Source of the DNA: Hymenobacter jeongseonensis
GTDB lineage: Bacteria > Bacteroidota > Bacteroidia > Cytophagales > Hymenobacteraceae
Reading direction: 5' to 3'
Assembly: GCF_015694725.1 (NCBI RefSeq)
Contig: NZ_JADQDQ010000003.1
Coordinates: 372,001-436,000 of the forward strand
Length of the DNA: 64,000 nt
Under the pieces are notes generated by a model, which saw nothing but the letters and a program-made list of their open reading frames with translations, had not been told where the DNA came from and ran no database searches. The position numbers were made by a program, and so were the translations under genes. Each line of letters opens with the position of its first letter. Position 1 is the first letter of the stretch. Below, piece after piece: positions 2,315 to 23,771 of the stretch.

Positions 2315-2323
2315 TCAAATAAG
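2315..2323 (-). promoter_or_regulatory. Leader motif CTTATTTGA (site 1)
   Basis: Reads tcaaataag on the plus strand and lies 5 nt upstream of the ATG at 2309, just after the terminator hairpin at 2357-2383. One of six copies in the prophage, all in gene leaders and all in this orientation. Function unknown; a phage-specific promoter or translation signal is the likeliest reading. Confidence 0.6.
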
Positions 2324-2350
2324 AGCGCGGCCCCGTGCCTGTACCGGTAT

Positions 2351-2383
2351 GAAAAAAGCCACCCGTCGAATGGACAGATGGCT
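2351..2383 (-). terminator. Intrinsic terminator after the tube-like gene
   Basis: On the minus strand an 11-bp stem (AGCCATCTGTC with GACGGGTGGCT, two G-U pairs) has a 5-nt loop and is followed by a run of six Ts. It lies 24 nt after the stop of the gene at 2407-2958. Confidence 0.75.
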
Positions 2384-2406
2384 GGTTTCAAACTGGATGA
2401 CGTCGA

Positions 2407-2958
2407 TTAGAGACGGTCGATTACGGCTTCGATTTCGATATCGGTCATGGTCACTTCGGCCGCGAAGCCCCGGTTACCACCCGTGAAGGACAACGTGATG
2501 CCGCTGTCGTCGCCACGGGCCGCGCCGCTGTTGGCGTTGCCCGGCGCAGGGACCAGGCCATCGGATTGACCAAGGACGTACCACTTGCCGTTCTTGCGCT
2601 GAACCAGGGCCACGACTTTGCGTTGCAGCAACAGGTTGTGAACGCGGTCAATTGCTTCCTTGCCGCTGGTATCCACGGTGGCGTTCAGGGTCAATTCCAT
2701 GAAGCGCTTCGTATTGGAAGGCGTGTACGCGTCGGTATAAGACGCTTGACCTTCGACAAACCCAATTTCCACAAACTTGTGGTCCGTGGTCAAGCTCATG
2801 CCGCTGATGGCGATGACGCTATTGGATTCCGTGCCTTGTACGACGGCGTGTTTGCCCACGAAATCCTTGTACGGGAGCAAACCCAAGAAATTCAGGCCAC
2901 CCATTTCGAAGGTGCTGGCGGACGTGTTACCGATGCCGCTGGTTAGAAAATTAGCCAT
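2407..2958 (-). CDS. Phage structural protein, tail-tube candidate
   Basis: A 183-aa protein from ATG 2958 (MANFLTSG). The longer open frame reads back through the hairpin at 2987-3030, so the internal ATG is chosen. The middle has a TDAYTPSNTKRFMELTLNATVDT strand pair, then RKVVALVQRKNGKWYVLGQ and GLVPAP, ending with a GDDSGITLSFTG strand. This order (long beta hairpin, then a K-NG-W-G turn) is what I know from tail-tube-like proteins near capsid genes in Bacteroidota phages. It is the first gene after the major capsid gene and resembles the N-terminal half of the 301-aa protein downstream. Tube is the best guess; a head-tail connector is the alternative. Confidence 0.55.
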   Translation of the reverse strand: MANFLTSGIGNTSASTFEMGGLNFLGLLPYKDFVGKHAVVQGTESNSVIAISGMSLTTDHKFVEIGFVEGQASYTDAYTPSNTKRFMELTLNATVDTSGKEAIDRVHNLLLQRKVVALVQRKNGKWYVLGQSDGLVPAPGNANSGAARGDDSGITLSFTGGNRGFAAEVTMTDIEIEAVIDRL

Positions 2959-2986
2959 ATTGATATGTAATTTTAAAGAGGAGAGT

Positions 2987-3030
2987 GATTCCGAAAAATG
3001 GCGGCATGTGGACCGCCATTTTTCGGAATC
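2987..3030 (-). terminator. Perfect 18-bp hairpin after the capsid gene
   Basis: gattccgaaaaatggcgg (2987-3004) is an exact inverted copy of 3013-3030, with an 8-nt loop. It starts 18 nt after the capsid stop. There is no T-run, so it may be an RNA-processing or 3'-stabilising hairpin that keeps capsid mRNA abundant rather than a full terminator. Confidence 0.7.
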
Positions 3031-3047
3031 AACTTCTTTATAAGTTA

Positions 3048-3977
3048 TTAAGCACCAGCGGTGTAAAGGACGAATTCTTCCCCGAAGGCGAAGTTGGCGC
3101 AAGCGAACATTTCGGCACGGACGCGGATTTTCTGTTCCAGCGTGGATTCGAACATGTCCTTCACGGCGAAAGCGTTCAGGTCGGACACGAGGTCGGTACC
3201 GAAGATGAGGTTGTCGATGGTCGTGCCCACGATGATGTTCTTGTTGACAATGCCAGCGGTCGGAACCACTTCGATGCCTTCAAAGTCCAGCGGCTTGCGG
3301 CCCACGGTCGATTGGTTCTCGTAATCGCCGAGCGACATGCGGTAAGCTTTGGCGGTACCGGGCGACACGTACAGCTTGAAACCTTCTTTTTCGCTGATTT
3401 CGTCCGGTGCGGATTCGTACGCTTTCGCCAGCGCGGCCTTAATGTTCGCCTTGCTCAGTGTGGCACCTTCGGTACCGGTCACCTTCACGGCGGTCGAACC
3501 ACTGGCAGCGGCCAAAGTCAGGTACCCGTCGAACTTTTGGGTATATCCGCCAGCAACGTTGTAAGCACCGCGCCACAAGTTGGCTTCCACTTGCATGTTC
3601 GCCGACTCTTCGATTTTAGACGTTACGTACGCGAAAAAGTCGTCCGGAATGTCTTTGTTCATGGCCCCGGCCTTCATCTTGTCGGCTTCCCAGGAAGAGA
3701 GCAAGATTTGCTTGTCCAGTTCGATGTTAATCATCAGGTGCTTTGGCACCAACATGCGCTGCGACAGGGTGTAACCGCCTTTGGCAACGAAGTCCGAGCT
3801 GTACGCTTGGATAAGGTCTTGACCGACTTCCAGTACCGAAATCGAGGTGGGGACCGAGACGTTAGTTTGCGGGGTTACGTAACCACCGGCAATTGATTTA
3901 GCACCGAGGGTGGCGCGGCTGATGTATGCTTTGGCGTCACGGCCAACATAGTTTACGTTAATTGATTCAAATGCCAT
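3048..3977 (-). CDS. Major capsid protein
   Basis: A 309-aa protein, the size of a HK97-fold major capsid protein. It polymerises around the scaffold to build the icosahedral head. Evidence: a N-terminal arm, a PTSISVLEVGQDLIQAY segment, a long helical spine (MNKDIPDDFFAYVTSKIEES, near residues 105-125), a G-loop-like region, an A-domain-type stretch LYVSPGTAKAYRMSLGDYEN, and a GIEVVPTAGI... I IVGTTIDNLIFGTDL motif that is very common in phage coat proteins. It directly follows the scaffold gene and is followed by a strong hairpin. ATG 3977 starts the frame; the leader carries a weak version of the conserved motif (CTTATACAA). Confidence 0.88.
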   Translation of the reverse strand: MAFESINVNYVGRDAKAYISRATLGAKSIAGGYVTPQTNVSVPTSISVLEVGQDLIQAYSSDFVAKGGYTLSQRMLVPKHLMINIELDKQILLSSWEADKMKAGAMNKDIPDDFFAYVTSKIEESANMQVEANLWRGAYNVAGGYTQKFDGYLTLAAASGSTAVKVTGTEGATLSKANIKAALAKAYESAPDEISEKEGFKLYVSPGTAKAYRMSLGDYENQSTVGRKPLDFEGIEVVPTAGIVNKNIIVGTTIDNLIFGTDLVSDLNAFAVKDMFESTLEQKIRVRAEMFACANFAFGEEFVLYTAGA

Positions 3978-4000
3978 TGTATAAGACTGTTATCTAGCTA

Positions 4001-4543
4001 TTATTTGTACATGGCGGCAGCGCGTTCGGCGACTGTCGTCGGTTTGGTGGGTGCGTCCTGGACGCTGAGCACCGTCTTTTTATCGGCTGGTTTGGCCTGG
4101 ATTTCGCTCAACTTGGTCTTCAAGTCGGCAGTGGTTTGGGATAGCTCCGTGGCGGTGGCTTTCAAGGCTTCCAGCTCGGCTTTCAAGGCTTCGATTTCCG
4201 CTTTCAGGGATTCGTTTTCAACGGCGAGGTCATCGCTGGCAACAGGTGCTTCAATAGGTGCTTCGTCTGCGGTCTCCACGGGTACTTCGTCTTCCGCCTT
4301 GGCGGGAGTCAAGCTTTCCATTTTGCCGTCTTTGATGACCAGCGTCGAACCGTCTTCCAAGGTGTATTCACCATCTGGAGTTGCGGTTTCCTGCGTGTCG
4401 TCGTTAACGCTGATAGCTTCGCCGTCCTTCGTTTTGTACTCGGACAGTTTTACTTCCACTTCGGCATCCATTGAAAGAATCGCTTTCGCCATCGCTTTGA
4501 GTTTGGTCAAGGCTGACGTGCTTTTTTCAGTGGTATCTTTCAT
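4001..4543 (-). CDS. Capsid scaffolding-like protein
   Basis: A 180-aa acidic protein directly upstream of the major capsid gene, the usual position for a scaffold that templates head assembly and is then removed. Residues about 55-80 form a small beta unit (DGEYTLEDGSTLVIKDGKM), residues about 85-105 are a Glu/Pro-rich stretch, and residues about 108-155 are a strong coiled coil with leucine/alanine heptads (ENESLKAEIEALKAELEALK). The basic C-terminus, AERAAAMYK, could be the capsid-binding tail. No enzyme motif is present. Scaffold assignment rests on position, composition and coiled coil rather than on a recognised sequence family. Confidence 0.7.
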   Translation of the reverse strand: MKDTTEKSTSALTKLKAMAKAILSMDAEVEVKLSEYKTKDGEAISVNDDTQETATPDGEYTLEDGSTLVIKDGKMESLTPAKAEDEVPVETADEAPIEAPVASDDLAVENESLKAEIEALKAELEALKATATELSQTTADLKTKLSEIQAKPADKKTVLSVQDAPTKPTTVAERAAAMYK

Positions 4544-4570
4544 TTAATGGGATGATATCTATTATCACCA

Positions 4571-4579
4571 TCAAATAAG
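4571..4579 (-). promoter_or_regulatory. Leader motif CTTATTTGA (site 2)
   Basis: Lies 27 nt upstream of the scaffold ATG and directly after the terminator at 4606-4629. It has the same orientation as the other copies, consistent with a new transcription start for the scaffold-capsid segment. Confidence 0.6.
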
Positions 4580-4605
4580 TCGGACCCAAAAAATCGTATG
4601 GACCC

Positions 4606-4629
4606 AAAAAAAACCGCCGTGAGGCGGTT
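4606..4629 (-). terminator. Intrinsic terminator upstream of scaffold
   Basis: On the minus strand, AACCGCC-TCAC-GGCGGTT is followed by a run of eight Ts. It terminates the unit ending with the membrane protein at 4654 and separates it from the scaffold-capsid segment. Confidence 0.88.
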
Positions 4630-4653
4630 GATTTGAAGCTTGACGGAAGACGA

Positions 4654-5295
4654 TTAGCGCGATGCCAGGACGCCGACGATTGCGCCCGCCAATAGGGTCC
4701 AGACAGTTCGCCACTTGCGCTTCTTGGCGGGTGGAATCACGGCATCGACGTCCTGGTTGTGAATCAAAGGATTCGTGTTTCTAGCGGTGATATGCAGAAC
4801 GTCCTTCTGGTCCCGGTAATGAGTGACAAGTAAGCGGTTCGGAATCGTCAGGGAATCGATGTACAGGGTGTCGCCACGCGCACGTATCCGGTACCGAAGG
4901 CTATCGGAGGCTAGGGACCAGTCGTGGCGACTCAGGGCCGCAGAATCGATGTTGACGTGGCGCACGACGGCGACGTGCTGGACAATGCTCGTGGCCGAGG
5001 CCAGTCGCTTGCTTTCGGCTTTAGGCAAGGATTTGAGGTCCTGGACCAGCGCTTGTTGGTTTTTGCTCAGGATGTTGAAGGCGTTATTCAGCGTCTTCAT
5101 GTCGGCTTCAATGCCGCGTTTTTCCACCACGGAGCGCCCGTACTGGTCTTGGTAATGACGGGCGGTGTCCTGCGCCGCCAGCAGCGCGGAAGTCGTTTGG
5201 GCGTGTTGGGATTGCAAGGTGCTCAGGCGGGAACATTGAACCAGCACGAGCGCCACGGCAGCCACTAAGGCGAAGAATAAGCTGCGGTTAAACAT
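4654..5295 (-). CDS. Membrane protein with coiled coil (spanin-like candidate)
   Basis: About 213 aa from ATG 5295; the frame can be opened from GTG 5316, but the ATG overlaps the upstream stop by 8 nt, a normal translational-coupling arrangement. An N-terminal hydrophobic segment (residues about 5-20, FFALVAAVALVLVQCS) is followed by a long helical region, a short beta segment (DSLRYRIRARGDTLYIDS) and a C-terminal hydrophobic segment (WTLLAGAIVGVLAS). The layout recalls small phage membrane proteins annotated as DUF6549/DUF6808 in Bacteroidota and inner-membrane spanins, which help disrupt the envelope at lysis. No lysin is adjacent, so a lysis role is only a suggestion. The Cys after the first segment could be a lipid site. 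Confidence 0.5.
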   Translation of the reverse strand: MFNRSLFFALVAAVALVLVQCSRLSTLQSQHAQTTSALLAAQDTARHYQDQYGRSVVEKRGIEADMKTLNNAFNILSKNQQALVQDLKSLPKAESKRLASATSIVQHVAVVRHVNIDSAALSRHDWSLASDSLRYRIRARGDTLYIDSLTIPNRLLVTHYRDQKDVLHITARNTNPLIHNQDVDAVIPPAKKRKWRTVWTLLAGAIVGVLASR

Positions 5296-5953
5296 GGTGG
5301 CCGTCACCGTTGTCACTGTCTCCGGTTAGGTCCAACATGAGGGCGTCCAGTGCGTCGTGAATCGGCGTCCAGGCGTCCAGCACGGCGATAATGTCGTCCG
5401 CGCCGAGTTGCTTGCTGGCTTGGACTAAGACTTCGCCGAACAAACCTTCCAGGCTGAATCCGTCGATGTTGCCGGTCATGACTTCATCGTTCCAGAACGC
5501 TGGGTCTTCCACGAAGTACGTCGCCATCACGGTCCCGGCTGGCAGGCCCGTGAAGCCGAGCGCCACGGCCTTGTCCATCTTGGCGTCGGTGATACGCCAG
5601 AATTCAATCAATCGGGCCTTTACCTTGTCGGCTTGCACGTGGTTCTTGTTGCTCAAGTGCAATTGGCCTTGTCCCATGAACTTGTTGGCAATTCGCTCGG
5701 CGGCGTCCACGGTGAATTTGACGTAATATTCGCCGTGGTGCTCGTCGTTGCGGTAAATGAGCTTGTCGGGAATGATGACCGCCGACGTCAGGTGACGTTT
5801 CATGGCGTTGGTTTGCAGCGCCACCGGGCGCGGCTCGTCTTCGGATAGGCGAACCGCCTGGACTTGCATGGCGGGATTTTTTACCAGGGATATCAAGTCG
5901 ATGCCGCTGGCATCGTCGTCGTTGATTTCTAGTTCGTAAATGGGTAATTTCAT
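5288..5953 (-). CDS. Prohead protease, XkdF-like
   Basis: A 221-aa protein whose start (MKLPIYELEINDDDASGIDL) and following VKNPAM are typical of the XkdF-type phage serine protease. The core contains LTSAVIIPDKLIYR, GEYYVKFTVDAAERIANKF and HLSNKNH, then GLPAGTVMATYFVEDPAFW and a GFSLEG stretch, matching the family in order. These enzymes process scaffold and capsid N-termini during head maturation. It lies between the tape measure and the head genes; its stop overlaps the next gene start. The conserved His and Ser residues are visible, but I cannot assign the catalytic pair with certainty. Confidence 0.78.
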   Translation of the reverse strand: MKLPIYELEINDDDASGIDLISLVKNPAMQVQAVRLSEDEPRPVALQTNAMKRHLTSAVIIPDKLIYRNDEHHGEYYVKFTVDAAERIANKFMGQGQLHLSNKNHVQADKVKARLIEFWRITDAKMDKAVALGFTGLPAGTVMATYFVEDPAFWNDEVMTGNIDGFSLEGLFGEVLVQASKQLGADDIIAVLDAWTPIHDALDALMLDLTGDSDNGDGHHV

Positions 5954-5971
5954 AGGAGGATAGTGATGGAG

Positions 5972-8785
5972 TTAACCAAGGAAATAGTCGTTGATTTCGG
6001 TGTTCTTCGTCACGTGGTCATCGTATTGGGTGACCACGAATTGACTCGGACGGCTGGCGAGGGCGATGGTGTCCTTCCGTAAAGAGATAAGTTCGGCTTG
6101 CATCGCCAGGAAGGCGTCCATGTTGGCGGTGCCTGCGGTGGTGTTGACCGGCGGTTGCCCGAAGCCACCGGCCGCGTACCCGTTACCGGTGGACCGAGCT
6201 GCTTCCAATTGATGAATTGAGGTTTGGAACTTGGGCGATTCAACCATCCACTTCGGAGCCACCCATTCGCCTTCGTGGACGACGCCCGCCACCCGATGCC
6301 CGGTGTGGTCGCGTTCGTATGACCCGATGCCGGTGAAACCTCCTGCGGCGAATCCTTTGGCTGCGGTTTTGACCGCCTGGAACGCGCCCGCCATCGCCAG
6401 CGTCGCCGCCAGGATATAGGCGATGTTATCGAAGCCGAACTTGCCGCCTTCCCCGGCCTTGGCAATGGCTTTAACCGAGGATACAGCGACTTCCGTGGCA
6501 CCCAAGGCGGCACTGACCGCTTGCAGCGCGTTCATCACTTGCTGTTGTTTGGCCTGCTTTTCTTGTTCGGCCGTTTTCTTCTTTTCCAGCTCAAGCTTTT
6601 GGGCTTCGGCTTGGCGTATCCGGCCGTCTTCCTTCTGTTTGTCCTTGGCGATGGCGGCGTTGCGCTTGCGTTCCTCTTCCAATTGGTCCAGGATAGCTTG
6701 GCGTTCGATGCCACGGGTGCCTTTGAGACTGGATTCCAGCTCGTCCACGCGGGAAGCAGAGTCATTCAACTGAGTTTTCAGGTCGTCCGAAGCACTCTTT
6801 GCGGCTTCCAACAAGTCGTCGTTTTCCTTCTGTTGGGCTTCGAGGGCGGCAGAACGGGCTTCGTTGGCGCTAGCCAGGTATTCCATGCCCAGCGCCAAGG
6901 CCCCGGTGAAGGATGCCGCCAAGGCTTGCTTGGTTTTATCCACGCTTTCCCGGTCCACGCCGAAGACTTTGCTCAGAATCGAAGTCCCCAGGTTGAATTC
7001 GCGGAGCGCAGCGGTGGCGGATTCAACGATTTTCTGGCGGGCGGCGACGCCGTTGGCGCGTACCAGGGTGCGGGCGTCTTCGTTCTTAACATCGGTGCCG
7101 AGCTGGCCCAGGGCCAAGGCTTCTTCGGCGGCTTGCTGGTCCAGCAGCGCGTCGTAATAAGCGGCGTTGCCTTCTTTGAGGCCCGCCAGCTTCACATCGG
7201 CACGGGCTTTGGCGTTACCGGCGTCCACGAGCACCTGGTTCTTGGCGAAGTCGGTATCCAGTTTGGTTTGCAGGCGGTTGCCTTCGGCCGTGACCAGTGC
7301 TTTTTGCGTCAGTAAAGCGGCTTTTTCTTTCTCCCCGGCCTTCTGGTATTTGTCGTCGATGGCTTGCAGCGCCAGCACGGTTTCCAGCGCTTTTTGACGC
7401 TTGATGATATCCAACGCGGCCCGGCTGCCGCTTTCTACGGCTTCCAGCTCGGCGGCAAGCTGAACTTTTTGGTTGTCGAACCCGATGGCCCGCGCCGCTT
7501 GTTCATCGGCCACCATTTTCTCAGTCAGGGCTTTGCGGTCGGCGGCGTTTTTCTCGCTCGTGGCCTTTTCGGCGGCAGCGTCGGCTTCCCGTTTCGCTTT
7601 GGCTTCGGCCCGGATGCCGAGCAAGGTGGCTTGCAACTCGTTTTGGACGTCCAGCGAAGCTTTTTGGGTCTCGGCGCGTTGTTTACGCAATTCAGCTTCC
7701 GCGTCTCGGTCTTCGGCGGTCAAGTTTTTCTTGAGCTTCTGTTCGGCTAGCAGGTTGGCAATTTTACGGTCTTGCAGGCCGATGGCGGCGGTGATGAATT
7801 TGTTCTCCAAGGCAGCGGCTTCCTGCGCCGCTTTCAGGCGTTCGCCGTTGCCTTTCTCGGTGTTGGCGGCATCCAGCTTCAACTTGGCAATCCGAGCTTC
7901 GGATTCGGCTTTGGCAACGCCGAGTTCGCGTTCGGCCACGGCGATTTGCCGGGTAACGTCGGCGATGCGTTCGCCTTCACTGGCGGCAGCGCTGGCTTGC
8001 TGACCGAAGGCTAACATGGCATTTCCCAGGCCACGGGCTTTGGCGGTGGCGTCGGTGATGCCGGTGGCAAACTGCGCCACGCCGTCCACGACCTTGGTGA
8101 AGTCCGCGTTGCGGATGCCGTCCAGGATGACCGTGAAGGATTTCAGGCGGTTGACCAAGTTGTTCTGGATGGCATCAACAAGGTCTTCCAGGCTCTTTTT
8201 GGGATTGGAAAACGCGTCGAATAGGAACTTGCCGAACTGCGCCACCTTCTCGCTGACGAGGCTGAAAACGGCTTGCAGCGCGGCGGTCTTCCGGTTGATG
8301 AAATCAATCCCGGCTTGGGTTTGGGTGAAATAGGTGACCAAGGCCCCGAACGCCAGCAATAGGATGCCGATGCCGGTGCTGGCGATGGCTCCTTTCAGGG
8401 TGCCGAAGCCTTTGCCCACGGTGTCGAGTCCGGATTTTACCGCGCTGAATCCGCCTTGCAGTTTTCCCAGGGCTTCGCCGGTTTCGCCAGCGGCCAAGGA
8501 GCCTAACCCAAAGGCGGCATCGAAGTCGCCGCCCATTTGCTGAGCACTTTGCCCGGCTTGGTTCGCGGCCTGCGCCGTGGCTTGGGTTTGAGCTTGAAAT
8601 GCCGCCAACGCCACGTTCGCCCGACGCGTTTCTTCCGTCAGGCGAATGAACTCGGCGCTGCCGAAGGTGGCGTTGTTCAAGTCGTTCTCCAAGGTCGATA
8701 CCGCTGTTTGCAGTTGGCCGATGGAGGTGATGTTTTGCTGGACGCCTTGAATATTTAGGCTTAGCGTACGGGTGGTGGTTGCCAT
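5972..8785 (-). CDS. Tail tape measure protein
   Basis: A 937-aa, Ala/Lys/Glu-rich protein of long helices, by far the most repetitive protein in the prophage. Such proteins set tail length and line the tube. Evidence: an N-terminal helical part with the LTEETRRANVALAAFQAQ type of sequence, hydrophobic helices near residues 130-155 (ASTGIGILLLAFGALVTYF), coiled coils from about 270 to 700, and a second hydrophobic region near residue 800 (NIAYILAATLAMAGAFQAVKTAA) followed by a glycine-rich end with a VVHEGEWVAP motif common in tape measures. The leader carries motif site 3. The gene follows the two large tail proteins, rather than preceding them as in most siphoviruses. Confidence 0.87.
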   Translation of the reverse strand: MATTTRTLSLNIQGVQQNITSIGQLQTAVSTLENDLNNATFGSAEFIRLTEETRRANVALAAFQAQTQATAQAANQAGQSAQQMGGDFDAAFGLGSLAAGETGEALGKLQGGFSAVKSGLDTVGKGFGTLKGAIASTGIGILLLAFGALVTYFTQTQAGIDFINRKTAALQAVFSLVSEKVAQFGKFLFDAFSNPKKSLEDLVDAIQNNLVNRLKSFTVILDGIRNADFTKVVDGVAQFATGITDATAKARGLGNAMLAFGQQASAAASEGERIADVTRQIAVAERELGVAKAESEARIAKLKLDAANTEKGNGERLKAAQEAAALENKFITAAIGLQDRKIANLLAEQKLKKNLTAEDRDAEAELRKQRAETQKASLDVQNELQATLLGIRAEAKAKREADAAAEKATSEKNAADRKALTEKMVADEQAARAIGFDNQKVQLAAELEAVESGSRAALDIIKRQKALETVLALQAIDDKYQKAGEKEKAALLTQKALVTAEGNRLQTKLDTDFAKNQVLVDAGNAKARADVKLAGLKEGNAAYYDALLDQQAAEEALALGQLGTDVKNEDARTLVRANGVAARQKIVESATAALREFNLGTSILSKVFGVDRESVDKTKQALAASFTGALALGMEYLASANEARSAALEAQQKENDDLLEAAKSASDDLKTQLNDSASRVDELESSLKGTRGIERQAILDQLEEERKRNAAIAKDKQKEDGRIRQAEAQKLELEKKKTAEQEKQAKQQQVMNALQAVSAALGATEVAVSSVKAIAKAGEGGKFGFDNIAYILAATLAMAGAFQAVKTAAKGFAAGGFTGIGSYERDHTGHRVAGVVHEGEWVAPKWMVESPKFQTSIHQLEAARSTGNGYAAGGFGQPPVNTTAGTANMDAFLAMQAELISLRKDTIALASRPSQFVVTQYDDHVTKNTEINDYFLG

Positions 8786-8827
8786 GAATGAGTCTTGCTT
8801 GAAAACGACGGCGGGTGACCATCGCTT

Positions 8828-8836
8828 TCAAATAAG
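8828..8836 (-). promoter_or_regulatory. Leader motif CTTATTTGA (site 3)
   Basis: 42 nt upstream of the tape measure ATG, in the 78-bp gap after the 891-aa tail gene. Same strand and orientation as the other copies. Confidence 0.6.
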
Positions 8837-8863
8837 ATTTCCAGGCAAAGCGGGCGCACGGCC

Positions 8864-12958: not shown

Positions 12959-12970
12959 TGCTAATTCTCT

Positions 12971-14013: not shown

Positions 14014-14018
14014 AGCGA

Positions 14019-14282: not shown

Positions 14283-14875
14283 AAAAAAGCCGCCAGATTC
14301 ATCACTTGCACCGGATTGATGTGTTTGGCGAAGAATTCAGCGCGTTTTCTGATGAATTCCGGGTCCAGATTCACGCTTTCAACGAGCTGAACCGGCTGGT
14401 TTTGGGCGTTTGTGCCATTGAACCAGCGTTGTAACCAGGATGTACGCACCTTATTTTCAGGTATATCCAGTCGTTTTCTGAGCAAAAGTGCCAGATAGTA
14501 TGGGATTTGCTTCATCGGCAGGCCGGGGAACATGTTTTGCACCTGGTCGAAGGCGGTTAATTCGCCGAACGTCCGCAATTCTTGCGCGTAATAGTTGGTC
14601 CCGGCGATGGTAACAAAGGCCACGGGCTTCTTTTGGGGGGCTTCCTTGGTGAAGTCCAGGTGTTTCCACAGCGGATTCAGCAAGCCGAAGCCCGACTCTT
14701 CGATGGTGGACATCGGTATCCGCGTCAAAGCGGACAGGATTCGGGCGGCGCGTTGCAACTCGGTCATGGTTTCGTCCGCTTGGACTTCGGCCACCGTGGC
14801 GTACTGGTCGAACGAGGTTTCATCCCAGGATTGCGGCAGGTACAGGGTATCGGTATTGAGGGTAAATTCCAACAT
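14090..14875 (-). CDS. Tail-assembly-chaperone candidate (zero frame)
   Basis: 261 aa from ATG 14875; the frame also opens from TTG 14890, but that falls in the leader motif. The protein starts with a small beta stretch (MLEFTLNTDTLYLPQSWDETSFDQYATVAE), continues with helices including RAARILSALTRIPMSTIEESGF, and has a C-terminal helical part. The run TTTTTTTTT at codons around 196-199 and the open -1 frame after it suggest a chaperone of the gpG/GT type. It directly follows TerL, an unusual place: chaperones normally sit between the tube and tape measure genes. Function is inferred from layout, not homology. Confidence 0.55.
   Translation of the reverse strand: MLEFTLNTDTLYLPQSWDETSFDQYATVAEVQADETMTELQRAARILSALTRIPMSTIEESGFGLLNPLWKHLDFTKEAPQKKPVAFVTIAGTNYYAQELRTFGELTAFDQVQNMFPGLPMKQIPYYLALLLRKRLDIPENKVRTSWLQRWFNGTNAQNQPVQLVESVNLDPEFIRKRAEFFAKHINPVQVMNLAAFFLTKERALNTVFGLCSSVQAMLLTQKANMDAKPAPFTGGWRLFTTLNRTYAAMLNGYVRTWMTS
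14280..14288 (-). promoter_or_regulatory. Slippery nine-T run, candidate -1 frameshift site
   Basis: Coding-strand GC-T-TTT-TTT-TTG-ACC. It satisfies the X-XXY-YYZ slippery form in the zero frame, and the -1 frame is open on both sides. No strong downstream pseudoknot was apparent by eye. Confidence 0.6.
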
Positions 14876-14886
14876 AGTGTTCGGTA

Positions 14887-14895
14887 TCAAATAAG
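14887..14895 (-). promoter_or_regulatory. Leader motif CTTATTTGA (site 4)
   Basis: 11 nt upstream of ATG 14875, in the 29-nt gap after TerL. Its presence supports the ATG start and rejects the TTG inside the motif. Confidence 0.6.
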
Positions 14896-14904
14896 GTGTG
14901 CCGC

Positions 14905-16494
14905 CTAAATGGGGGCAAAGAAGAAGTCGCCTTCCTTGGCATTGCGCACGGCGTATATCAGCGTATCTAGGGCGTCGTCGTGGCGCTTGCCGGACTCCTT
15001 ACCGGTGAAGCTGGAACATTCATCGATGAACTCTTCCGTCCAGGGCTGACCGGCAAGGATTCGCGCCCGGCCACCTTCAACGTAACTTTCTATCCCGATG
15101 CAGCGGGCGGCTTTGCTGTCCCGGCCCGGCTGCAATTCCAGGAAGATGACGTTGGGAACCAGCTCCTTCATTTCGCTGATGAGGGACTTGCCAATCGACT
15201 TGCCTTCAATCCAGACGCGGGTGGCCGGGTACAGGCCGTGCCGATTGGCATCGAGCCACGCCGCCAAGCTGCGCTTCAAGTCCGGTAACGTCAGGCGACG
15301 CCACTGGACATCGAGGACGAATACCTGGTTGTCTAACTTGCCAACGAGCGCCCAACAGGTGGCGTCATTTAATGGATTAGTGGTTTCGGCTCCGTCCAAG
15401 AACACCTGGTATTCGACGTGCCGACCTTGGGATTTGAGCTTCCATTCGTCGGCGGTTACGGTGTTATCGGTGAACCACTTCGTTTTCAAGATGCCGCCGT
15501 CCCGGCTGCGTGGCCGCTGCAAGTGCTGTTGGCTGTACCCGTTGGTGCCGAGTCGGGCGCGTTCGAAGTTCAAGTCCGGACGACTCAGGCGACCAGGAGC
15601 GTCCCACAGCAAGCGGTTCCCGGTGCCTGGTTCGGGTGTGTACCGGTCGAACCACTCGGACGGGATGACGTCGGCGCTGGACTTGGCTTCCGAGGGCAGC
15701 TTGATGACGCGGAAGTATTCGGCCAGCTGCGCCTGGATGGCCCCACTGACGTCCTGGACGTGAAGCCGCTGGTTGAAGTTGATGTGCAGGCCGACCGCTT
15801 TGTTGTTGAAACGGCCGAAAATGTCGTGCATGAGTTTGTTCAGCACGTTATTGCGCTCGGCGTCGCTCGTGGCGGTCGGCGAATCCAGCAAGTCATCGGT
15901 GATGGTCAGGTCGGTATTCTCACCCAGAATCTTGGAGTCGATACCGAAGGCGGTCCGTTTGCCCCCCGTGGACCATTCGTATCCGCTTTCGTTGTCCACG
16001 ACCAATGTCATTTCCGGGTAATGCAGCTTGAACCAGTCGGACTTGATGACCTTCTTCGTGAAGCCGAGCATCTTGCCCGACAGGCGTGAACCGTTGGTGA
16101 CGGTTACGATTTCCGCCTTCGGCATCAGCAGGTGAAACCACAGCGGAGCCGCCACATTGTAAATGAAAGACTTGCCCGTACGCGGCCCGATGTTGGCGTC
16201 CACGTGTTTGAGCCGAGCTTTGCCGGTGGCCGCGCGTTCCAGGTCGGGTTGAATGTCGTCGCACAAGGCCTTGACGTGCCAGTTGTTTTCGAAGACTTCG
16301 CCTTTGATATTGGGGAACAGGTCTTGGTAAAACGCGAAAAAATCCTTGCGGTACAGCGCCCGGTTGACGTCCACGCGCAAGGTGTCGGGGTTAACCGAGG
16401 GGACGGGTTTCACCGGCAACGGGTGCTTCCGTGGGCGTCCGCCTTTGTTCTTGGGTACCTTGGTGATTAGTAAATCATCTTTGTTAATAGGCAT
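14905..16494 (-). CDS. terL: Terminase large subunit
   Basis: A 529-aa packaging motor: an N-terminal ATPase and a C-terminal RNase-H-fold nuclease. The Walker A loop is PRTGKS at residues about 104-109 in the NIGPRTGKSF context; Walker B is LTITDD at about 196-201. The nuclease domain shows DGAETTN (Asp 367), VWIEGKS (Glu 430) and KRHDDALD (Asp 506/507), in the right order and spacing. Residues 18-24 (GGRPRKH) look like an AT-hook-type DNA-binding tail. The gene follows the small subunit by 24 nt. The family is secure; type (cos or pac) cannot be told by eye. Confidence 0.9.
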   Translation of the reverse strand: MPINKDDLLITKVPKNKGGRPRKHPLPVKPVPSVNPDTLRVDVNRALYRKDFFAFYQDLFPNIKGEVFENNWHVKALCDDIQPDLERAATGKARLKHVDANIGPRTGKSFIYNVAAPLWFHLLMPKAEIVTVTNGSRLSGKMLGFTKKVIKSDWFKLHYPEMTLVVDNESGYEWSTGGKRTAFGIDSKILGENTDLTITDDLLDSPTATSDAERNNVLNKLMHDIFGRFNNKAVGLHINFNQRLHVQDVSGAIQAQLAEYFRVIKLPSEAKSSADVIPSEWFDRYTPEPGTGNRLLWDAPGRLSRPDLNFERARLGTNGYSQQHLQRPRSRDGGILKTKWFTDNTVTADEWKLKSQGRHVEYQVFLDGAETTNPLNDATCWALVGKLDNQVFVLDVQWRRLTLPDLKRSLAAWLDANRHGLYPATRVWIEGKSIGKSLISEMKELVPNVIFLELQPGRDSKAARCIGIESYVEGGRARILAGQPWTEEFIDECSSFTGKESGKRHDDALDTLIYAVRNAKEGDFFFAPI

Positions 16495-16518
16495 GAGGGG
16501 AGTGGTGGTACAATCGGA

Positions 16519-17064
16519 TTAGACCAGCACCGCGTCGCTTTCGCCTTCGTTCGGGTGGCCGTTGCTGAGCTTGAGCAAGCGTTGCAGGTCCCGTAACTCG
16601 TCGGCGCTCAAATGCGACAGGTCGTTGCGTACCTGGACTTCCTGTTTCACCACCAAGGCCTTCGGCGCTTCGTACCCCCGCAATTGAATCAGTTGATTTA
16701 AGACCTTCAAGGCTTGGTCCAGCTTGCCAGCGGCGTACATGTCCCGGTACAGCGTTTCCAACTTGATTAGGACTTCATCATATTCCTTGGCGTACGATTC
16801 CGTCTTGCGATTCTGAATGTCTTCGCGGGTGTAAGTGATGTACTTCTTGGCTTGCCGGGTGCTGACGCCGAATTCGGCAGCCAAGCCGTCCATCTTCATT
16901 TTGTACGTCCAGCCACGTCCCATCATGGACCGACAGGATTCGATGATTTCTTTCCGCAGTTGCTTTTGTTCGTCCTTGCTGAGCGTGTTCATCTTGTCCG
17001 TGCCTTTGCTGCCTGGATGATGCTTGACGACGAGGCCGGTGGTGTTGAGGGGGTCGGGTTCCAT
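16519..17064 (-). CDS. terS: Terminase small subunit
   Basis: A 181-aa DNA-recognition subunit of the packaging enzyme. A basic start is followed by a helix-turn-helix near residues 45-80 (GWTYKMKMDGLAAEFGVSTRQAKKYITY), then a long helical oligomerisation region (ESYAKEYDEVLIKLETLYRDMYAAGKLDQALKVLNQL) and a hydrophilic tail. It sits immediately upstream of terL, as is usual, and its leader has motif site 5 and terminates the gap after the sigma-like gene. An internal ATG at residue 25 is an alternative start. Identification rests on gene position plus the HTH and helical layout. Confidence 0.78.
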   Translation of the reverse strand: MEPDPLNTTGLVVKHHPGSKGTDKMNTLSKDEQKQLRKEIIESCRSMMGRGWTYKMKMDGLAAEFGVSTRQAKKYITYTREDIQNRKTESYAKEYDEVLIKLETLYRDMYAAGKLDQALKVLNQLIQLRGYEAPKALVVKQEVQVRNDLSHLSADELRDLQRLLKLSNGHPNEGESDAVLV

Positions 17065-17084
17065 TGATTGAGGAATGCTTTCCC

Positions 17085-17093
17085 TCAGATAAG
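17085..17093 (-). promoter_or_regulatory. Leader motif CTTATCTGA (site 5)
   Basis: 20 nt upstream of the terS ATG. Its surroundings match site 6 more closely than the others: both carry CTTATCTGAGGGAAA, preceded at slightly different spacing by AGCGGTC. Confidence 0.6.
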
Positions 17094-17117
17094 AAGACCG
17101 CTATTCCCCGGTACCGC

Positions 17118-17825
17118 TTATGAATCGCGTTCGTCGGTCAGGTACCAGTGGACCGTCTTCAAATGTTCCCGAATCTTCTTCACGGCATCGAAGCAGATGG
17201 CCCGCGAATAATCTGATTCACTCACCAAGCGCTTCATCGACCACCGGTTCAGGATGTACACCTTGTAAATGCCGACTTCGCGGAAGGTGAAGAACTCGTC
17301 CAGGATGCAGTCGTCCAAGTACGTGAACAGTTTCTCCCAGAGTTCGGAATAATAGGAGTCCCGAAGGTCCGAATCGGTTTCAATTCGGGGTGGCTCGGCG
17401 GCGAATTCAACGCCGGTATCCAAGAGGTCTTCCAGGTTGACGTGGATGTATTCGCGGCGGCGCACGGGTGGGTTAACCAGGCCTTCCACCATCCAGTCGT
17501 CTTGATGGGTATTGGTCTTGTTGGCGGTGGTCTTCTTGTAATGAAGTGTCCGATAATTGCACCAACACGCGAACAAGACGTATCCGACGACCTTGGCGGC
17601 GCTGATGAAGGCCGTCTTTCCCTTGAGGGCTTGTTCCATCATCCGGTACTGCGCGTCGCTAATTAGTTCTTCCAGCTCGTCGCTGGCGATGGTTTTGCGC
17701 AGCTTGAACTTGATGCCTTCCTTGACCTTGGCGCGGATGTATTTGCGTTCGGCCACCAGGACGGCAAAGATTTCTTCGGTGGTTAATGGTGTGGTGTTGG
17801 TTTCAGCCGGTACTTCATTGGTCAT
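17118..17825 (-). CDS. Sigma-factor-like protein, candidate late-gene activator
   Basis: A 235-aa protein. Residues about 35-100 (TIASDELEELISDAQYRMMEQ, then AKVVGYVLFACWCNYRTLHYKK) have the spacing of a sigma-70 region 2 helix bundle that would contact RNA polymerase core and -10 DNA. Residues about 190-225 (VGIYKVYILNRWSMKRLVSESDYSRAICFDAVKKIREHL) look like the region 4 helix-turn-helix. It is the first gene of the late operon, directly upstream of the terminases, and its upstream region holds the G-tract/TATAAGGG element. A sigma-like late activator is a natural candidate for recognising the CTTATYTGA motif, but this link is my inference and the sequence similarity is weak. Confidence 0.5.
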   Translation of the reverse strand: MTNEVPAETNTTPLTTEEIFAVLVAERKYIRAKVKEGIKFKLRKTIASDELEELISDAQYRMMEQALKGKTAFISAAKVVGYVLFACWCNYRTLHYKKTTANKTNTHQDDWMVEGLVNPPVRRREYIHVNLEDLLDTGVEFAAEPPRIETDSDLRDSYYSELWEKLFTYLDDCILDEFFTFREVGIYKVYILNRWSMKRLVSESDYSRAICFDAVKKIREHLKTVHWYLTDERDS

Positions 17826-17968
17826 ACCGATAAATACTCGGCATTGTCACGAAGTCAGAAATGAATAAAGGTTGATAACAGCATTTACGTCAACCTTGAT
17901 AGTATGTAAACCCGAGGTGAATATCAAGGTGGTTAACGATAGGATACAACTAGGTAAGATAAGAAGGG

Positions 17969-18013
17969 AAGGGGTGGGGTTTTCTATTACTTATAAGGGT
18001 ACAGCAAGTCGAT
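17969..18013. repeat. G-tract + CTATTACTTATAAGGGTACA element, copy 1
   Basis: Purine/G-rich tract, then tctattacttataagggt and acagcaagtcgat. Bases 17,983-18,013 match 26,403-26,433 with a single difference; copy 2 at 26,329-26,345 shares ttacttataagggtaca. All are in the same orientation. Possible binding site, origin element or promoter. Confidence 0.7.
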
Positions 18014-18138
18014 AATGTTTTGTATAGTTTTAATATACAAGATATTACAGTAAATAAATGCTGAAAACAATTGCGCCCGGCCTAGGGGAGGGCCGTTCCT
18101 TGGATAGATACTTCTAAAATACTTGCTCCCGGTAGGCA

Positions 18139-18179
18139 CGATTTGTTTTCGTCGTGGTGGTCATGAATTGTATTTTTAG
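18139..18179 (+). promoter_or_regulatory. Early promoter A with 17-bp conserved box
   Basis: CGATTTGTTTTCGTCGT (18,139-18,155) is exactly repeated, inverted, at 26,173-26,189. Downstream, TATTTTTAG at 18,171-18,179 is close to the Bacteroidota -7 element. It would drive the regulator gene at 18,318. The identical 17 bp could be an operator shared by both arms. Confidence 0.55.
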
Positions 18180-18317
18180 TCAAAGCGAAAATTGTCGCAC
18201 ATTTTCTTCTCAAGATTGACAACTTTTTCACCAAACTGAATAGAATAATTAATCGATTGAAATGATGGCGACCTGAACACGAGTATTTACTTGTGAGGCT
18301 TGCCCAGAATCAAACCC

Positions 18318-18677
18318 ATGAACACCATTCATATGAACGTTACCACCACCATAACCATCACCGACTTCATCAAGAAGTACGAGTTGCGCTTGCAGCCATT
18401 GGCAGACTTGCTTGGCATGTGCCAAGCTAGCTTCCGGAATAAGCTAAACGGCGTAGGCAAGTCGAAGCCGTTTACGGGCGAACAGTTGGATGCCTTGCAC
18501 CAATACATCCAAGCCATCGGCATTGAAATCATGAGCCTGCGCCAAGCCAAGCTGGACGAGCTTCGGAACAAGATTCACCAACAGTGTTCGGATGTCCGGT
18601 TTCATTACCTGGATACCGCCAAGAAATTTGGCATCAATGCCGATGACTTGTCAAAGCCTCAACAGGTCTTGAATTAG
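18318..18677 (+). CDS. Small HTH-type phage regulator candidate
   Basis: 119 aa from ATG 18318; an upstream TTG would add six residues. An initial Thr-rich stretch is followed by a helical domain, FIKKYELRLQPLADLLGMCQASFRNKLNGVGK, which fits a Cro/C1-like helix-turn-helix (recognition helix around QASFRNKL). The C-terminal half is a long helix with charged residues (IMSLRQAKLDELRNKIHQQ), suitable for dimerisation. It is the first rightward gene after the divergent control region and lies behind promoter A. A Cro-like switch role is therefore likely but inferred. Confidence 0.55.
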   Translation: MNTIHMNVTTTITITDFIKKYELRLQPLADLLGMCQASFRNKLNGVGKSKPFTGEQLDALHQYIQAIGIEIMSLRQAKLDELRNKIHQQCSDVRFHYLDTAKKFGINADDLSKPQQVLN

Positions 18678-19554: not shown

Positions 19555-19576
19555 CGTCTTTTGGTATGGTTTGGTA

Positions 19577-20239
19577 TTAGGCCGGTATCGGGGTTTGGAC
19601 CAAGCGATGAACCGCGCCCGCCGTCCAGGGATGACCACGACGGGTGGTGTATCCCTTGGCGGTTAGGTGCTCGGCAACCCGTTGCAAGGTCCAGCCGAGC
19701 TGGCGTTTGTCGGCGATGATATCCGTCACTTGTACGGCGGCTTGGCGGGCGTTGCTTTGGCGGACCAGTAAGGAAGTGGCACGGGCGTCGGCGGTCATGT
19801 TGGCCGGGGAGCCGAGTCGTTCGCCACGGCGCTTCTTGGCAGCCAAGGCTTCCCGCGTTCGGGTGCTGATTTGCTTGGCTTCGTGTTGGGCAATCACCGC
19901 CAGCAATCCCAAGGTCAGCGGATTCGCATGAGGATTGTCAACGGCCACGAAGTTTACGCCCGCGTCCATCAGGCTCAGCAAGAAGGAAGCGTTACGGGAC
20001 AGGCGGTCCAGCTTGGCGATGATAAGAGTGCTGGACGTGGCCTTCGCTTCGGCTAGGGCTGCCATCAGCTTGGGGCGGTTGTTCTTCTTGCCCGATTCCA
20101 CTTCGATGTACTCCGAGCTGATTGTGCCCGCGTTTGCGGCGACGTGGCGCAGGACGGTGGCTTGCTGAGCTTCCAGGCCGAGACCGGATTCACCTTGGCG
20201 GACGGTACTGACTCGGTAATACGCGACGAAGTTTTGCAT
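19577..20239 (-). CDS. Serine recombinase, resolvase/invertase type
   Basis: 220 aa from ATG 20239 (MQNFVAYYRVST); the longer frame has no phage-like leader. The catalytic serine is Ser11 in YYRVSTVRQ; the IIAKLDRLSRN segment holds the conserved Arg pair. Residues about 105-120 carry FVAVDNPHANPLTLGLLAVIAQHE, as in resolvases. The C-terminus (GWTLQRVAEHLTAKGYTTRRGHPWTAGAVHRLV) is an HTH of the recombinase family. This small type usually resolves or inverts DNA segments. The prophage also has a tyrosine integrase, so this enzyme may control inversion or an accessory element. Inverted repeats upstream (20,368-20,450) could be its crossover site. Confidence 0.85.
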   Translation of the reverse strand: MQNFVAYYRVSTVRQGESGLGLEAQQATVLRHVAANAGTISSEYIEVESGKKNNRPKLMAALAEAKATSSTLIIAKLDRLSRNASFLLSLMDAGVNFVAVDNPHANPLTLGLLAVIAQHEAKQISTRTREALAAKKRRGERLGSPANMTADARATSLLVRQSNARQAAVQVTDIIADKRQLGWTLQRVAEHLTAKGYTTRRGHPWTAGAVHRLVQTPIPA

Positions 20240-20637
20240 GGGTTGGACTTTTCCAGGGGAGGTCCCACGAAGGTACGAATCATTTCTCATTTGTTAAACG
20301 GACATTTAATAAACAGTATAGACTTTTTCAGTGTCTTGGACTCCTGAGTACATGATTAATTGATTATGATATTCGCAATGATATGAGCATTTTATTGCAA
20401 ATATCTTATGGTATCAAAGTGGCACTAAATGAGGCTAATTTTTGCGAATAGTGCAGCCGCCAAATGATTCGAATGCGGCCCGCGCAGAAACCGCCGTGGT
20501 CATGATACCCAGGTCTTGAGGATAGACGAGGTTCAGAAAGTGGGATTTGAGTCAATGGGCTGAGAAAATGGCGAGAAAAAAGTCCAACCATTAACATGAT
20601 TGGACTCTGAGATTTTTTCAGCAGCTTATTAATTAAG
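20240..20637. other. Intergenic region upstream of recombinase
   Basis: About 400 bp without a gene. It holds three near-inverted copies of an 9-bp box: tattcgcaa near 20,370, ttgcaaata near 20,396 and ttgcgaata at 20,442-20,450. The first two sit in a 12-bp imperfect inverted repeat (20,368-20,379 and 20,394-20,405) with a 14-nt spacer. Candidate res-type site. The rest shows no other feature. Confidence 0.45.
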
Positions 20638-22472: not shown

Positions 22473-22511
22473 ATATGGCAGAATCAGAATGTAAAACGCA
22501 AGGTAAAAGAA

Positions 22512-22542: not shown

Positions 22543-22560
22543 CTGAAACTTGGTATGTCA

Positions 22561-22737
22561 TCAAGGACGGTGGCGGGGGTATTGCAGGTAATGGGCTTCC
22601 AGGCGGGCGTCGTACTTGGTTTTGAGGTGCTGAATGAAGTCGGCGTATTCCGTCTGCGACATGTGGTCCAATTGCTTCACCACGGCCACCAAGATGTCCT
22701 TGGGGGTGATGGCGTCGGTGATGATGGTGTCACTCAT
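22561..22737 (-). CDS. 58-aa phage protein, unknown
   Basis: A short gene below the usual length cut: ATG 22737 to TGA 22561, one base after the stop of the preceding gene. The product starts MSDTIITDAITPKDILVAVV and continues with KQLDHMSQTEYADFIQHLKT, an alpha-helical, mildly acidic protein with a basic proline-ended tail. A clear terminator follows. Translation coupling with the gene before it and phage-like codon use make it credible. I know no family. Confidence 0.55.
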   Translation of the reverse strand: MSDTIITDAITPKDILVAVVKQLDHMSQTEYADFIQHLKTKYDARLEAHYLQYPRHRP

Positions 22738-22738
22738 G

Positions 22739-22927
22739 TTATCTGTTGATACCGACGAATAATTCGGTGATGGAATCCGTCAGGTTCTTTAGTCGCTGGG
22801 TGTTTTGTTGCACCTGGACGAGCACGGCCTGACGCTCGGTCAAAGCAGGGGTGAGGGTGATAGTCACGATGGTTGAGGTCGTGGCGGATGGGTGGTGGCT
22901 GTAACCGCCGGTTTGCAGGGTCTTCAT
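22739..22927 (-). CDS. 62-aa phage protein, unknown
   Basis: From ATG 22927 (MKTLQTGGY); the longer frame has an upstream ATG at 22993, but the region between reads as leader. Product: a Thr-rich strand (STIVTITLTPALTERQAVLVQVQ) and a C-terminal helix, NTQRLKNLTDSITELFVGI. Its stop is one base ahead of the ATG of the 58-aa gene, so the two are probably translated together. No family recognised. Confidence 0.45.
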   Translation of the reverse strand: MKTLQTGGYSHHPSATTSTIVTITLTPALTERQAVLVQVQQNTQRLKNLTDSITELFVGINR

Positions 22928-23018
22928 GTCGATGGTCTGTTTGTTCCCCTGTAAATAGCGGCAATGACCGTCGCTGAAAGCGGTTTGCCGCACTTTTCTT
23001 CGGGTTTTTCCAACTATT

Positions 23019-23348
23019 TCATATTACGCTGATAACGTATGTGTTATGTTTTAGCGTGGGGTCGGGAGTGCAGCTAATGCCACCGAAGTACCGCTTGTCG
23101 TCGTTGGGAACCAGGTGCTCGGCGCGAAGGGAATCGATGAACGCCTTCATGTATACGTTATCGGCGTCCATCCTTGACCAGTACCGGATGACAATGGTGA
23201 AATTTTTCATCGGCTTCATTCCAGCATCGGCGAACATCTTCCGGTACAGCGGCTTCCAGTCTTCCATCAGCTTGGCACGTTGCCAGCGGTTCTTGCTCAG
23301 CATCGTGTTCCAGGATAGCCACGCGCCCGTCCAGGTTATCGTGTACAT
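23019..23348 (-). CDS. RusA-like Holliday-junction resolvase
   Basis: 109 aa, near the family norm. The signature is in the C-terminal half: SRMDADNVYMKAFIDSLRAEHLVPNDDKRYFGG. This reproduces the RusA pattern of paired Asp (D-x-DN), K-x-x-xD, and a later N/D-DD motif that coordinates Mg ions at the junction. The first half has a basic helix and an NFTIVIRYWS strand. In phages this nuclease resolves branched DNA before packaging. The gene overlaps the preceding membrane protein gene by 13 nt. Position in the early/replication arm also fits. Confidence 0.65.
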   Translation of the reverse strand: MYTITWTGAWLSWNTMLSKNRWQRAKLMEDWKPLYRKMFADAGMKPMKNFTIVIRYWSRMDADNVYMKAFIDSLRAEHLVPNDDKRYFGGISCTPDPTLKHNTYVISVI

Positions 23349-23743
23349 GCGACGATTCCGACGTGGAGAACAAGGCCCAGGACAAACAACGTGGCCCGCA
23401 GCTTGAAACCCATTTCGATTTTGGCGGTGCTCGACTTCGATGAATACGTGAAGCCGTGGGTGGTGCCGTCGATGATGTTGCGGCCCAGGTAATAGCTTTG
23501 GTTGTGGCTGAACGAGAACATCAGCGCGAAGCCCAGGATGGCAGCCAGGGCAGGAATTAGCCCTAGTTGAGTGCTTACGGCCACGATAACCAGCACCACC
23601 ACGCGTTCGGCAATGTAAAGAAGGTGCTCGTTGTACTTGGTGGCGTCGGCAGCGGTCCGGCTGTACAGGATGGAGTCCTTGAAGCCGCTGATGCTGGCGT
23701 ACAGGTTCAGCAAGAATAATAGTACCAGGGATAAGGTTAACAT
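23336..23743 (-). CDS. Four-helix membrane protein, unknown
   Basis: 135 aa with four hydrophobic segments: residues about 1-20 (MLTLSLVLLFLLNLYASISG), 45-62 (AERVVVLVIVAVSTQLGL), 62-78 (IPALAAILGFALMFSFS) and 113-132 (LRATLFVLGLVLHVGIVAC). A hydrophilic loop holds a Ser-rich STTHGFTYSS-like stretch. It could be a holin-sized membrane protein, but the position in the early arm and absence of lysis neighbours leave this open. The leader has motif site 6. The end overlaps the RusA-like gene. Confidence 0.5.
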   Translation of the reverse strand: MLTLSLVLLFLLNLYASISGFKDSILYSRTAADATKYNEHLLYIAERVVVLVIVAVSTQLGLIPALAAILGFALMFSFSHNQSYYLGRNIIDGTTHGFTYSSKSSTAKIEMGFKLRATLFVLGLVLHVGIVACTR

Positions 23744-23762
23744 GAAGGAAGCGTGGTTTCCC

Positions 23763-23771
23763 TCAGATAAG
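23763..23771 (-). promoter_or_regulatory. Leader motif CTTATCTGA (site 6)
   Basis: 19 nt upstream of the ATG at 23743, just after the terminator at 23789-23814. It shares CTTATCTGAGGGAAA with site 5. This is the only copy found outside the structural operon. Confidence 0.6.

Follow-up and report, generated by a model that had tools for sequence, protein, structure and literature searches.

A Prophage with a Motif Repeated in Its Gene Leaders

The window analysed here, a 64-kb stretch of Hymenobacter jeongseonensis DNA (G000:C22:372001-436000), holds genes of a prophage, and the adjoining left flank (C22:352001-372000, L009) was read together with it. The gene content is that of a temperate tailed phage, comprising an integrase, a divergent region, a sigma-like protein (P0001), a terminase pair, a capsid-like protein, and mostly unknown genes, with a DUF5675 protein near the far end of the prophage (Table 1). 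The nine-base word CTTATYTGA, which recurs in the leaders of these genes and is a candidate -10 element for P0001, is the subject of this report.

The original prediction listed six copies of CTTATYTGA, and both their coordinates and their placement on the minus strand were confirmed. Counted on both strands, the window has seven copies compared with 0.45 expected, a number reached by 0 of 100 shuffled sequences; the seventh copy (60954, plus strand) is not among the prophage genes. The prophage extends past the left edge of the window, and three further minus-strand copies occur there at -1830, -7801, and -8083 (L009 18170-18178, 12199-12207, and 11917-11925), each ahead of an ATG, along with a near copy, CTTATCTAA, at L009 19221-19229 that also precedes an ATG codon. 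The prophage stretch of ~38 kb holds nine sense copies, where 0.12 are expected and at most two were seen in 300 Markov sequences, and no antisense copy, in line with the claim that the density is not due to chance. All nine are located in leaders, 5-42 nt from an ATG that opens a reading frame, which is the range first given. With both strands counted, the complete genome of 5.19 Mb in 28 contigs contains 53 copies, nine of them in one block on a single strand (C22:363917-395771), and CTTATYTGANNNNRA is matched by 9/9 prophage copies versus 7/44 of the others.

Three sites had been described as directly following terminators, and this is true of those at 2315, 4571, and 23763. Two sites share the longer block CTTATCTGAGGGAAA, as claimed, and a third copy of this block sits outside the window. 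A weaker form reported at the capsid gene (CTTATACAA, 3977-3985) found no support and was rejected, since it overlaps the start codon: its final base is the A of that codon, and an RNA start 5 nt further on would be intragenic. TTG starts within the motif at 2315 and 14887 were set aside in favour of the downstream ATG, as in the orthologues. A further possible site, CTTATCTTA, is located ~130 nt ahead of the sigma gene, with G at +5 but T as the next base.

Table 1. Features of the window, with positions counted from its first base.
Feature	Position	Strand	Remarks
CTTATTTGA, -10-like block	2315..2323	-	Predicted RNA start 2310 (G of gATG); next gene ATG at 2309 (95 aa)
Terminator-like hairpin ahead of 2315 site	2383-2357	-	
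CTTATTTGA site	4571..4579	-	Predicted RNA start 4566; next gene 4001-4543 (180 aa, coiled-coil)
Terminator-like hairpin ahead of 4571 site	4629-4612	-	
CTTATTTGA site	8828..8836	-	Predicted RNA start 8823; next gene 5972-8785 (937 aa, weak tape-measure match)
CTTATTTGA site	14887..14895	-	Predicted RNA start 14882; next gene ATG at 14875 (261 aa)
CTTATCTGA site ahead of terminase small-subunit-like gene	17085..17093	-	Predicted RNA start 17080
CTTATCTGA site ahead of small hydrophobic protein gene (23336-23743)	23763..23771	-	Predicted RNA start 23758
P0001, 235 aa, likely diverged two-domain sigma	17118..17825	-	Proposed motif reader
P0002, terminase small-subunit-like	16519..17064	-	First gene behind sigma gene; named from its place before TerL
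Terminase large subunit	14905..16494	-	phrog_38, 3.1e-61
Major capsid protein-like, presumed late block	3048..3977	-	phrog_11320; SU10_MCP 22.8 bits, below cut-off 24.1
Intergenic region between sigma gene (-) and divergent gene with weak CII-like match (+)	17826..18299	.	~470 bp
Gene with weak CII-like match	18300-18677	+	
Serine recombinase (Resolvase, DNA-invertase-like)	19577-20290	-	Inside prophage
P0005, 516 aa	24368-25918	-	LDIRNSQPF and TIHDSVVV, by eye like PolA/T7 polymerase palm motifs
Integrase (early/lysogeny end)	27105..28583	-	Host-type TAnnTTTG box begins 41 nt ahead of start (28624)

Related Prophages Carry Words of Their Own

Terminase searches were positive in 26 of 204 genomes of the family, the present one included, and terminase-oriented flanks were taken from 12 of the other 25. 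CTTATYTGA itself was unclustered in these 12 relatives, with no copy in ten, one sense and one antisense copy in G140, and two and one in G002. The scan of both strands that the original prediction proposed for the prophage and its relatives disclosed sense-only clustering in the window prophage and separate cognate words in five relatives: CTTATTTAC in G200 (8 sense and 0 antisense copies in 56 kb), CTTATCTRC in G082 (6 and 0 in 52 kb), CTTATAWCTACCA, counted as CTTATAWCTA, in G052 (5 and 0 in 52 kb), and ACATATATAA in both G140 (6 and 1 in 48 kb) and G175 (5 and 0 in 33.6 kb). Searching the leaders without a preset motif placed these words first in the window prophage, G200, G082, G140, and G175; scoring with one mismatch was too noisy in the AT-rich phages. 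G016, a relative with related structural genes, showed only a few CATACATA-type words, and CCCAATAC in three leaders, with three sense and three antisense copies. It has no sense-only repeated leader word and no P0001 homologue, with no such open reading frame (ORF) between the neighbour gene and the terminase small-subunit gene.

Sites also tend to precede the same genes. Among 27 sense genes shared with G200, eight carry a site in the window prophage and the same eight carry one in G200 (P=4.5e-7), while in G082 all five assigned sites, out of six in total, coincide with those of the window prophage (P=0.005). Specifically, a cognate word lies upstream of the orthologues behind the 8828 and 14887 sites in G200, G082, G140, and G175; that behind the 17085 site is preceded by one in G200 and G052, and in G175 too when its leader is read; and the G200 orthologue for the 23763 site has CTTATTTAC upstream. 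In several relatives, reading by hand would extend the list to the 98-aa and 180-aa genes, which were not counted.

The word groups equal the clades of the P0001 family. Identities between the sigma proteins of the six motif phages are 42-44 % among the window prophage, G200, and G082, 42 % between G140 and G175, and otherwise 14-28 %. Within one host genus (g1: the window prophage, G082, and G052) the word differs from phage to phage. This bears on the idea that the element is a promoter read by a host sigma, primary or of the extracytoplasmic function (ECF) type, perhaps with a phage activator, while P0001 has some other role. The host does have 26 Sigma70_r2 matches and the element is -10-like, but a word varying within one host genus is not what a shared host sigma predicts. 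No motif word matches the host-type TAnnTTTG box, whose sense copies in the window prophage are confined to 28624, 26158, and -8512, with none in the late region; the CTTATYTGA copies elsewhere in the genome, 44 in number, are scattered over many contigs. A host reader is unlikely on these grounds.

The promoter could instead belong to P0005, as a phage single-subunit RNA polymerase. In favour of this are the palm-like motifs of P0005, recognised by eye only in a protein with no Pfam, PHROG, or PDB match, and relatives found by hidden Markov model (HMM) in 4/6 motif phages (strong in the window prophage and G200; G140, 1.4e-16; G082, antisense, 4.7e-13). We also take CTTATCTGAGGGAAA to resemble the T7 promoter core. 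Strong homologues of P0005 occur in G200, G132, G241, and G016, however, and the last is without such a word, while no relative was found in the word-bearing stretches of G052 and G175, of which G175 is a partial contig and G052 has unproven full cover. The two-part AAAT/CATATATAA form in G140 and G175 is typical of a sigma promoter. We regard this polymerase as a very improbable reader.

A Start-like Base Follows the Motif

To compare the sites, 40 of them from the six phages were aligned on TAT; the antisense copy of G140 was left out, and one G140 site (15318) falls within a long ORF. A purine stands 5 nt past the block in 40/40 sites, preceded by a pyrimidine in 29/40, compared with at most 34/40 purines at the other offsets from 1 to 15. 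In the window prophage, the +5 purine is followed by A in 10/10 sites. A purine start with a preceding pyrimidine is the usual look of bacterial starts behind a -10 element. The signature thus falls within the 5-10 nt past the motif at which RNA starts had been predicted, and a conserved -10-like block plus a start-like base, the feature that marks a phage sigma late promoter, is present at the level of sequence.

Upstream of the block the clades differ. The CTTAT clade (window prophage, G200, and G082; 24 sites) has no conserved base at -35 to -30, and the 11 sites of the ACATATATAA clade have A at -33, -32, and -31 in 9, 11, and 10 cases and T at -30 in 8.

Predicted RNA starts lie 0-3 nt ahead of the start codon (codon at +1 to +4) in 17/40 sites, so these mRNAs would be nearly leaderless; the automatic count was 18, from which the 20164 site of the window prophage, with a short overlapping frame, was removed by hand. 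Such late mRNAs would be notable compared with the flavobacterial start-site map, which gives only 5.5 % leaderless mRNAs (PMC9723704).

The same alignment bears on a leader translation signal replacing Shine-Dalgarno, which the original prediction had offered as a second option. The sites do precede start codons, and Bacteroidota mRNAs are described as lacking Shine-Dalgarno (PMC6847099). Against such a signal, the distance to the start codon ranges from 5 to 42 nt, the word varies among phages of one host genus, just 8/27 genes in common with G200 carry the motif, and the +5 purine is fixed regardless of start-codon distance. In fact, it is present in 20/20 sites with a start codon farther away than +8 or with none found, so it is not a by-product of GATG. 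A translation signal has very little probability in our estimation.

At 11/40 sites a terminator-like hairpin occurs in the preceding 75 nt, versus 21/2400 random positions (4/10 in the window prophage, 3/8 in G200, and one in each of the other four phages). A general terminator scan of window positions 1-18500 found 28 compared with 27.4 expected in shuffles, which is no enrichment, so the terminator argument rests on position rather than number. These hairpins concern the third option offered, an RNA-processing site at which a longer late transcript would be cleaved. The one-strand placement would suit processing, and a cut could also give a fixed purine end, but hairpins so close upstream at 11/40 sites would leave scant read-through RNA to cut, and neither the -10-like TAT core nor the -33 element in G140 and G175 is accounted for by processing. 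This is the least probable of the alternatives. If transcription starts at the predicted purine, the motif lies outside the mRNA, which fits both the translation and the processing options worse than a promoter. Of the three options, the sequence comparisons favour a phage promoter whose -10-like element is used by the sigma-like protein.

Leaders of the 937-aa gene orthologues were also read by eye. A hairpin lies at or beside the predicted RNA start in 4/5 phages read: G082 27888 (GAGCGAC...GTCGCTC plus a T run), G140 24268, G175 28531, and G200 31301; none was obvious in the window prophage. Such a structure might protect the 5' end or serve as an attenuator.

P0001 Is Likely a Diverged Two-Domain Sigma Factor

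Region 2 of P0001 spans approximately residues 13-107 and region 4 residues 154-232, with a long low-confidence linker at about 99-158. Profile comparison by hhalign of the P0001 family with 10 host sigmas scored 91.7 % at E 8e-7, the alignment (columns 31-217) being colinear through both region 2 and region 4; the controls, two reversed sequences and two TerS, gave 0.1-2.1 %. The 10 were drawn from 12 fetched host sigma proteins, two longer, primary-type ones being left out. The family profile also reaches a Pfam-positive sigma (Sigma70_r2) in G407 over region 2 (E 2.8e-6).

AlphaFold2 (AF2) models consist of two helical domains plus the linker. In one list of PDB structure matches the top 23 rows were sigmas. 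A second held no non-sigma chain recognised by title or chain letter among the best 50 of 329, with a best Z of 8.2 and Z>=8 in 5/329. Taken alone, region 2 reached Z 7.8 with a root-mean-square deviation (rmsd) of 2.9 over 84 residues, and region 4 reached Z 7.7 with rmsd 2.4 over 63, values that can reflect a common helical arrangement. Each result is weak by itself; taken together, they make a diverged sigma likely, chiefly through sequence profiles and less firmly through structure. The sigma-like protein of the original prediction is supported in this form by the profile comparison with its controls, and less firmly by structure.

HMM searches found P0001 homologues in the window prophage, G200, G082, G052, G175, G140, G132, and G241. 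Matches of this type occurred in 8/204 family genomes, in 4/390 of the order sample (one of them, G407, an ordinary host-type sigma), and in 1/395 of both the class and the phylum samples, each time the present genome. IMG/VR scans with sigma queries returned only phages equal to G200, G132, and G140, and a tblastn search with P0001 as the query returned six of 50,697 phage records, with a best E of 4 and no credible relative. Searching the PDB by sequence gave no match for P0001, P0005, or profile A3.

A cut-short P0001 homologue (37 %) lies at a contig end in Hymenobacter terricola (G125; L069 1979-2659), followed by chromosomal-looking genes, and is a phage remnant.

A Proposed Late Promoter and Its Reader

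CTTATYTGA is very probably the late promoter -10 element of this prophage, read by the phage-encoded sigma P0001. This proposal draws on the placement, orientation, and recurrence of the word, the start-like bases, some unit borders, the sigma homology, and the joint occurrence of word and protein. We infer the lateness of the genes from their content, namely terminase, capsid-like, and tail-like genes; P0001 binding, transcription, timing, and control of P0001 from the region at 17826-18299 are also inferred.

CTTATYTGA would act as an extended -10 element, with the block at about -13 to -5 and RNA beginning at the purine 5 nt past the 9-mer. Such promoters would stand ahead of late groups, that is, the terminase genes, the gene after them, the tape-measure-like gene, the capsid-region genes, and the far end with the DUF5675 protein, some copies directly behind a terminator. 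Host core RNA polymerase carrying P0001, with its regions 2 and 4, would read them, region 2 opening the DNA at the TAT core. On induction, early genes would be expressed via host sigma and P0001 from the divergent switch region, after which P0001 would activate the CTTATYTGA units jointly.

Several points weigh against this proposal. The number of phages in which word and protein occur together is small, and the word may be tied to the phylogeny of the phages instead of to their sigma gene. A P0001 homologue is also present in G132 and G241, where no clear word of the CTTATYTGA kind was found; the motif search in G241 returned no word, and in G132 leaders TAATTAAA (12/27) and TTAATTAAA (10/27) occur on both strands and include the top-scoring word of all phages, which is palindrome-like. 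Leader-word discovery returned nothing for G052, and the G082 word, scoring 11.5 (3 leaders), is barely above the best G016 word at 11.2 (3 leaders), the two being separated by strand bias alone (5 sense/0 antisense versus 3/3). Of the homologue-free relatives, G016, G044, G002, G154, G034, and G068, the leader test covered G016. Overlap of site-bearing genes with the window prophage is weak in G052 (3/4 assigned sites of 5 in total, P=0.05), G140 (2/3 of 6, P=0.09), and G175 (2/3 of 5, P=0.07), and all P values for orthologues ignore that only genes preceded by a gap can bear a site. The P0001 gene immediately precedes the terminase genes in all but G052, in which it lies inverted and ~8 kb from TerS.

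The protein itself adds to these points. P0001 has no Pfam family above cut-off and no PHROG match, and its relatives have only sub-threshold Pfam matches (Sigma70_ECF, E 0.17 in 1/6); the lack of a Pfam-level match is the reason that our claim was lowered to a diverged sigma. The AF2 models have a modest mean predicted local distance difference test (pLDDT) of 55.5 with three sequences and 64.4 with five. The first structure list includes non-sigma chains from rank 24, the domain-wise lists also hold non-sigma rows at Z 6.6-7.1 (a viral capsid protein, KorA, and ArdK), and the best Foldseek E was 0.026, with none <0.001. A region-4 domain is present though the CTTAT clade is without a -35 element.

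Some choices of method favoured the proposal. The words of the relatives were chosen after inspection, and the search was closest in phages with a P0001 homologue. The window-prophage set of 10 counts the near copy CTTATCTAA, the G052 set counts CTTATATCTACCA, and the register of G140 and G175 was fixed on the TAT core.

Comparison with Described Promoter Systems

T4 late promoters carry TATAAATA, read by gp55, which acts with gp33 and the sliding clamp. As proposed for P0001, gp55 serves late genes as a phage sigma on a single -10-like block; P0001 differs in having a region-4-like domain too. Foldseek ranked a gp55 complex (7d7c) 46th among the P0001 matches (E 1.5). A parallel in layout is phiEco32 gp36, with a -10-like block tAATGTATAtA located 6-8 nt upstream of the start and before middle and late units, and phage 7-11, with a related yet different word (PMC4281155, PMC4331800). 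Here too, a small phage sigma would use one short -10-like block repeated before units. In contrast to these enterobacterial phages, the present ones are temperate Bacteroidota phages with other words, the sigma gene before the terminase genes, and many near-leaderless predicted starts; one clade also has a -33 element. The likeness to phiEco32 gp36, 7-11, or T4 gp55 concerns the presumed way of working, and we do not claim membership in their sequence families.

Host ECF-type sigmas resemble P0001 in the order of region 2 and region 4, over both of which the profile match extends, whereas P0001 is phage-borne, without a Pfam match, and has a long low-confidence linker. In its spacing from the predicted start, the block is similar to the Bacteroidota primary-sigma promoter, with TAnnTTTG at -12 to -5 in Flavobacterium (PMC9723704), but the words here do not fit that box. 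Jumbo phages with sigma factors, one group including Bacteroidetes phages, have been described (PMC7824862).

Phage sigmas with dedicated promoters are already known; what is new here is the protein sequence, the words, and the phage group. The literature searched, which included few subscription journals, yielded no description of a promoter of this kind from phages of Hymenobacter or other Bacteroidota. From the sequence comparisons it seems fairly probable that these proteins form an undescribed sub-Pfam sigma family in temperate Hymenobacter-type phages, with lineage-specific words (CTTATYTGA, CTTATTTAC, CTTATCTRC, CTTATAWCTACCA, and ACATATATAA plus the -33 box) before largely the same late genes and more than one third of late mRNAs nearly leaderless. 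If true, nature would here have provided a series of sigma/promoter pairs caught midway through divergence, with the -33 element also gained or lost along the way. The six phages would offer a matched sigma/promoter set on largely orthologous genes, useful for studying -10 recognition by region 2 and changes in specificity, along with a testable late-expression switch for temperate Bacteroidota phages. The sigma/word pairs could also act as separate expression tools in Bacteroidota.

Other Features of the Prophage

The intergenic region between the sigma gene and the divergent gene with a weak CII-like match contains no CTTATYTGA. It is the proposed switch region, perhaps for lysis/lysogeny control. 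An imperfect inverted repeat lies within it (17872-17887 / 18055-18070). Rfam gave 0 matches for window positions 1-30000. Relatives of the serine recombinase encoded inside the prophage lie near the sigma gene in G200 and G241 and farther away in G140 and G132.

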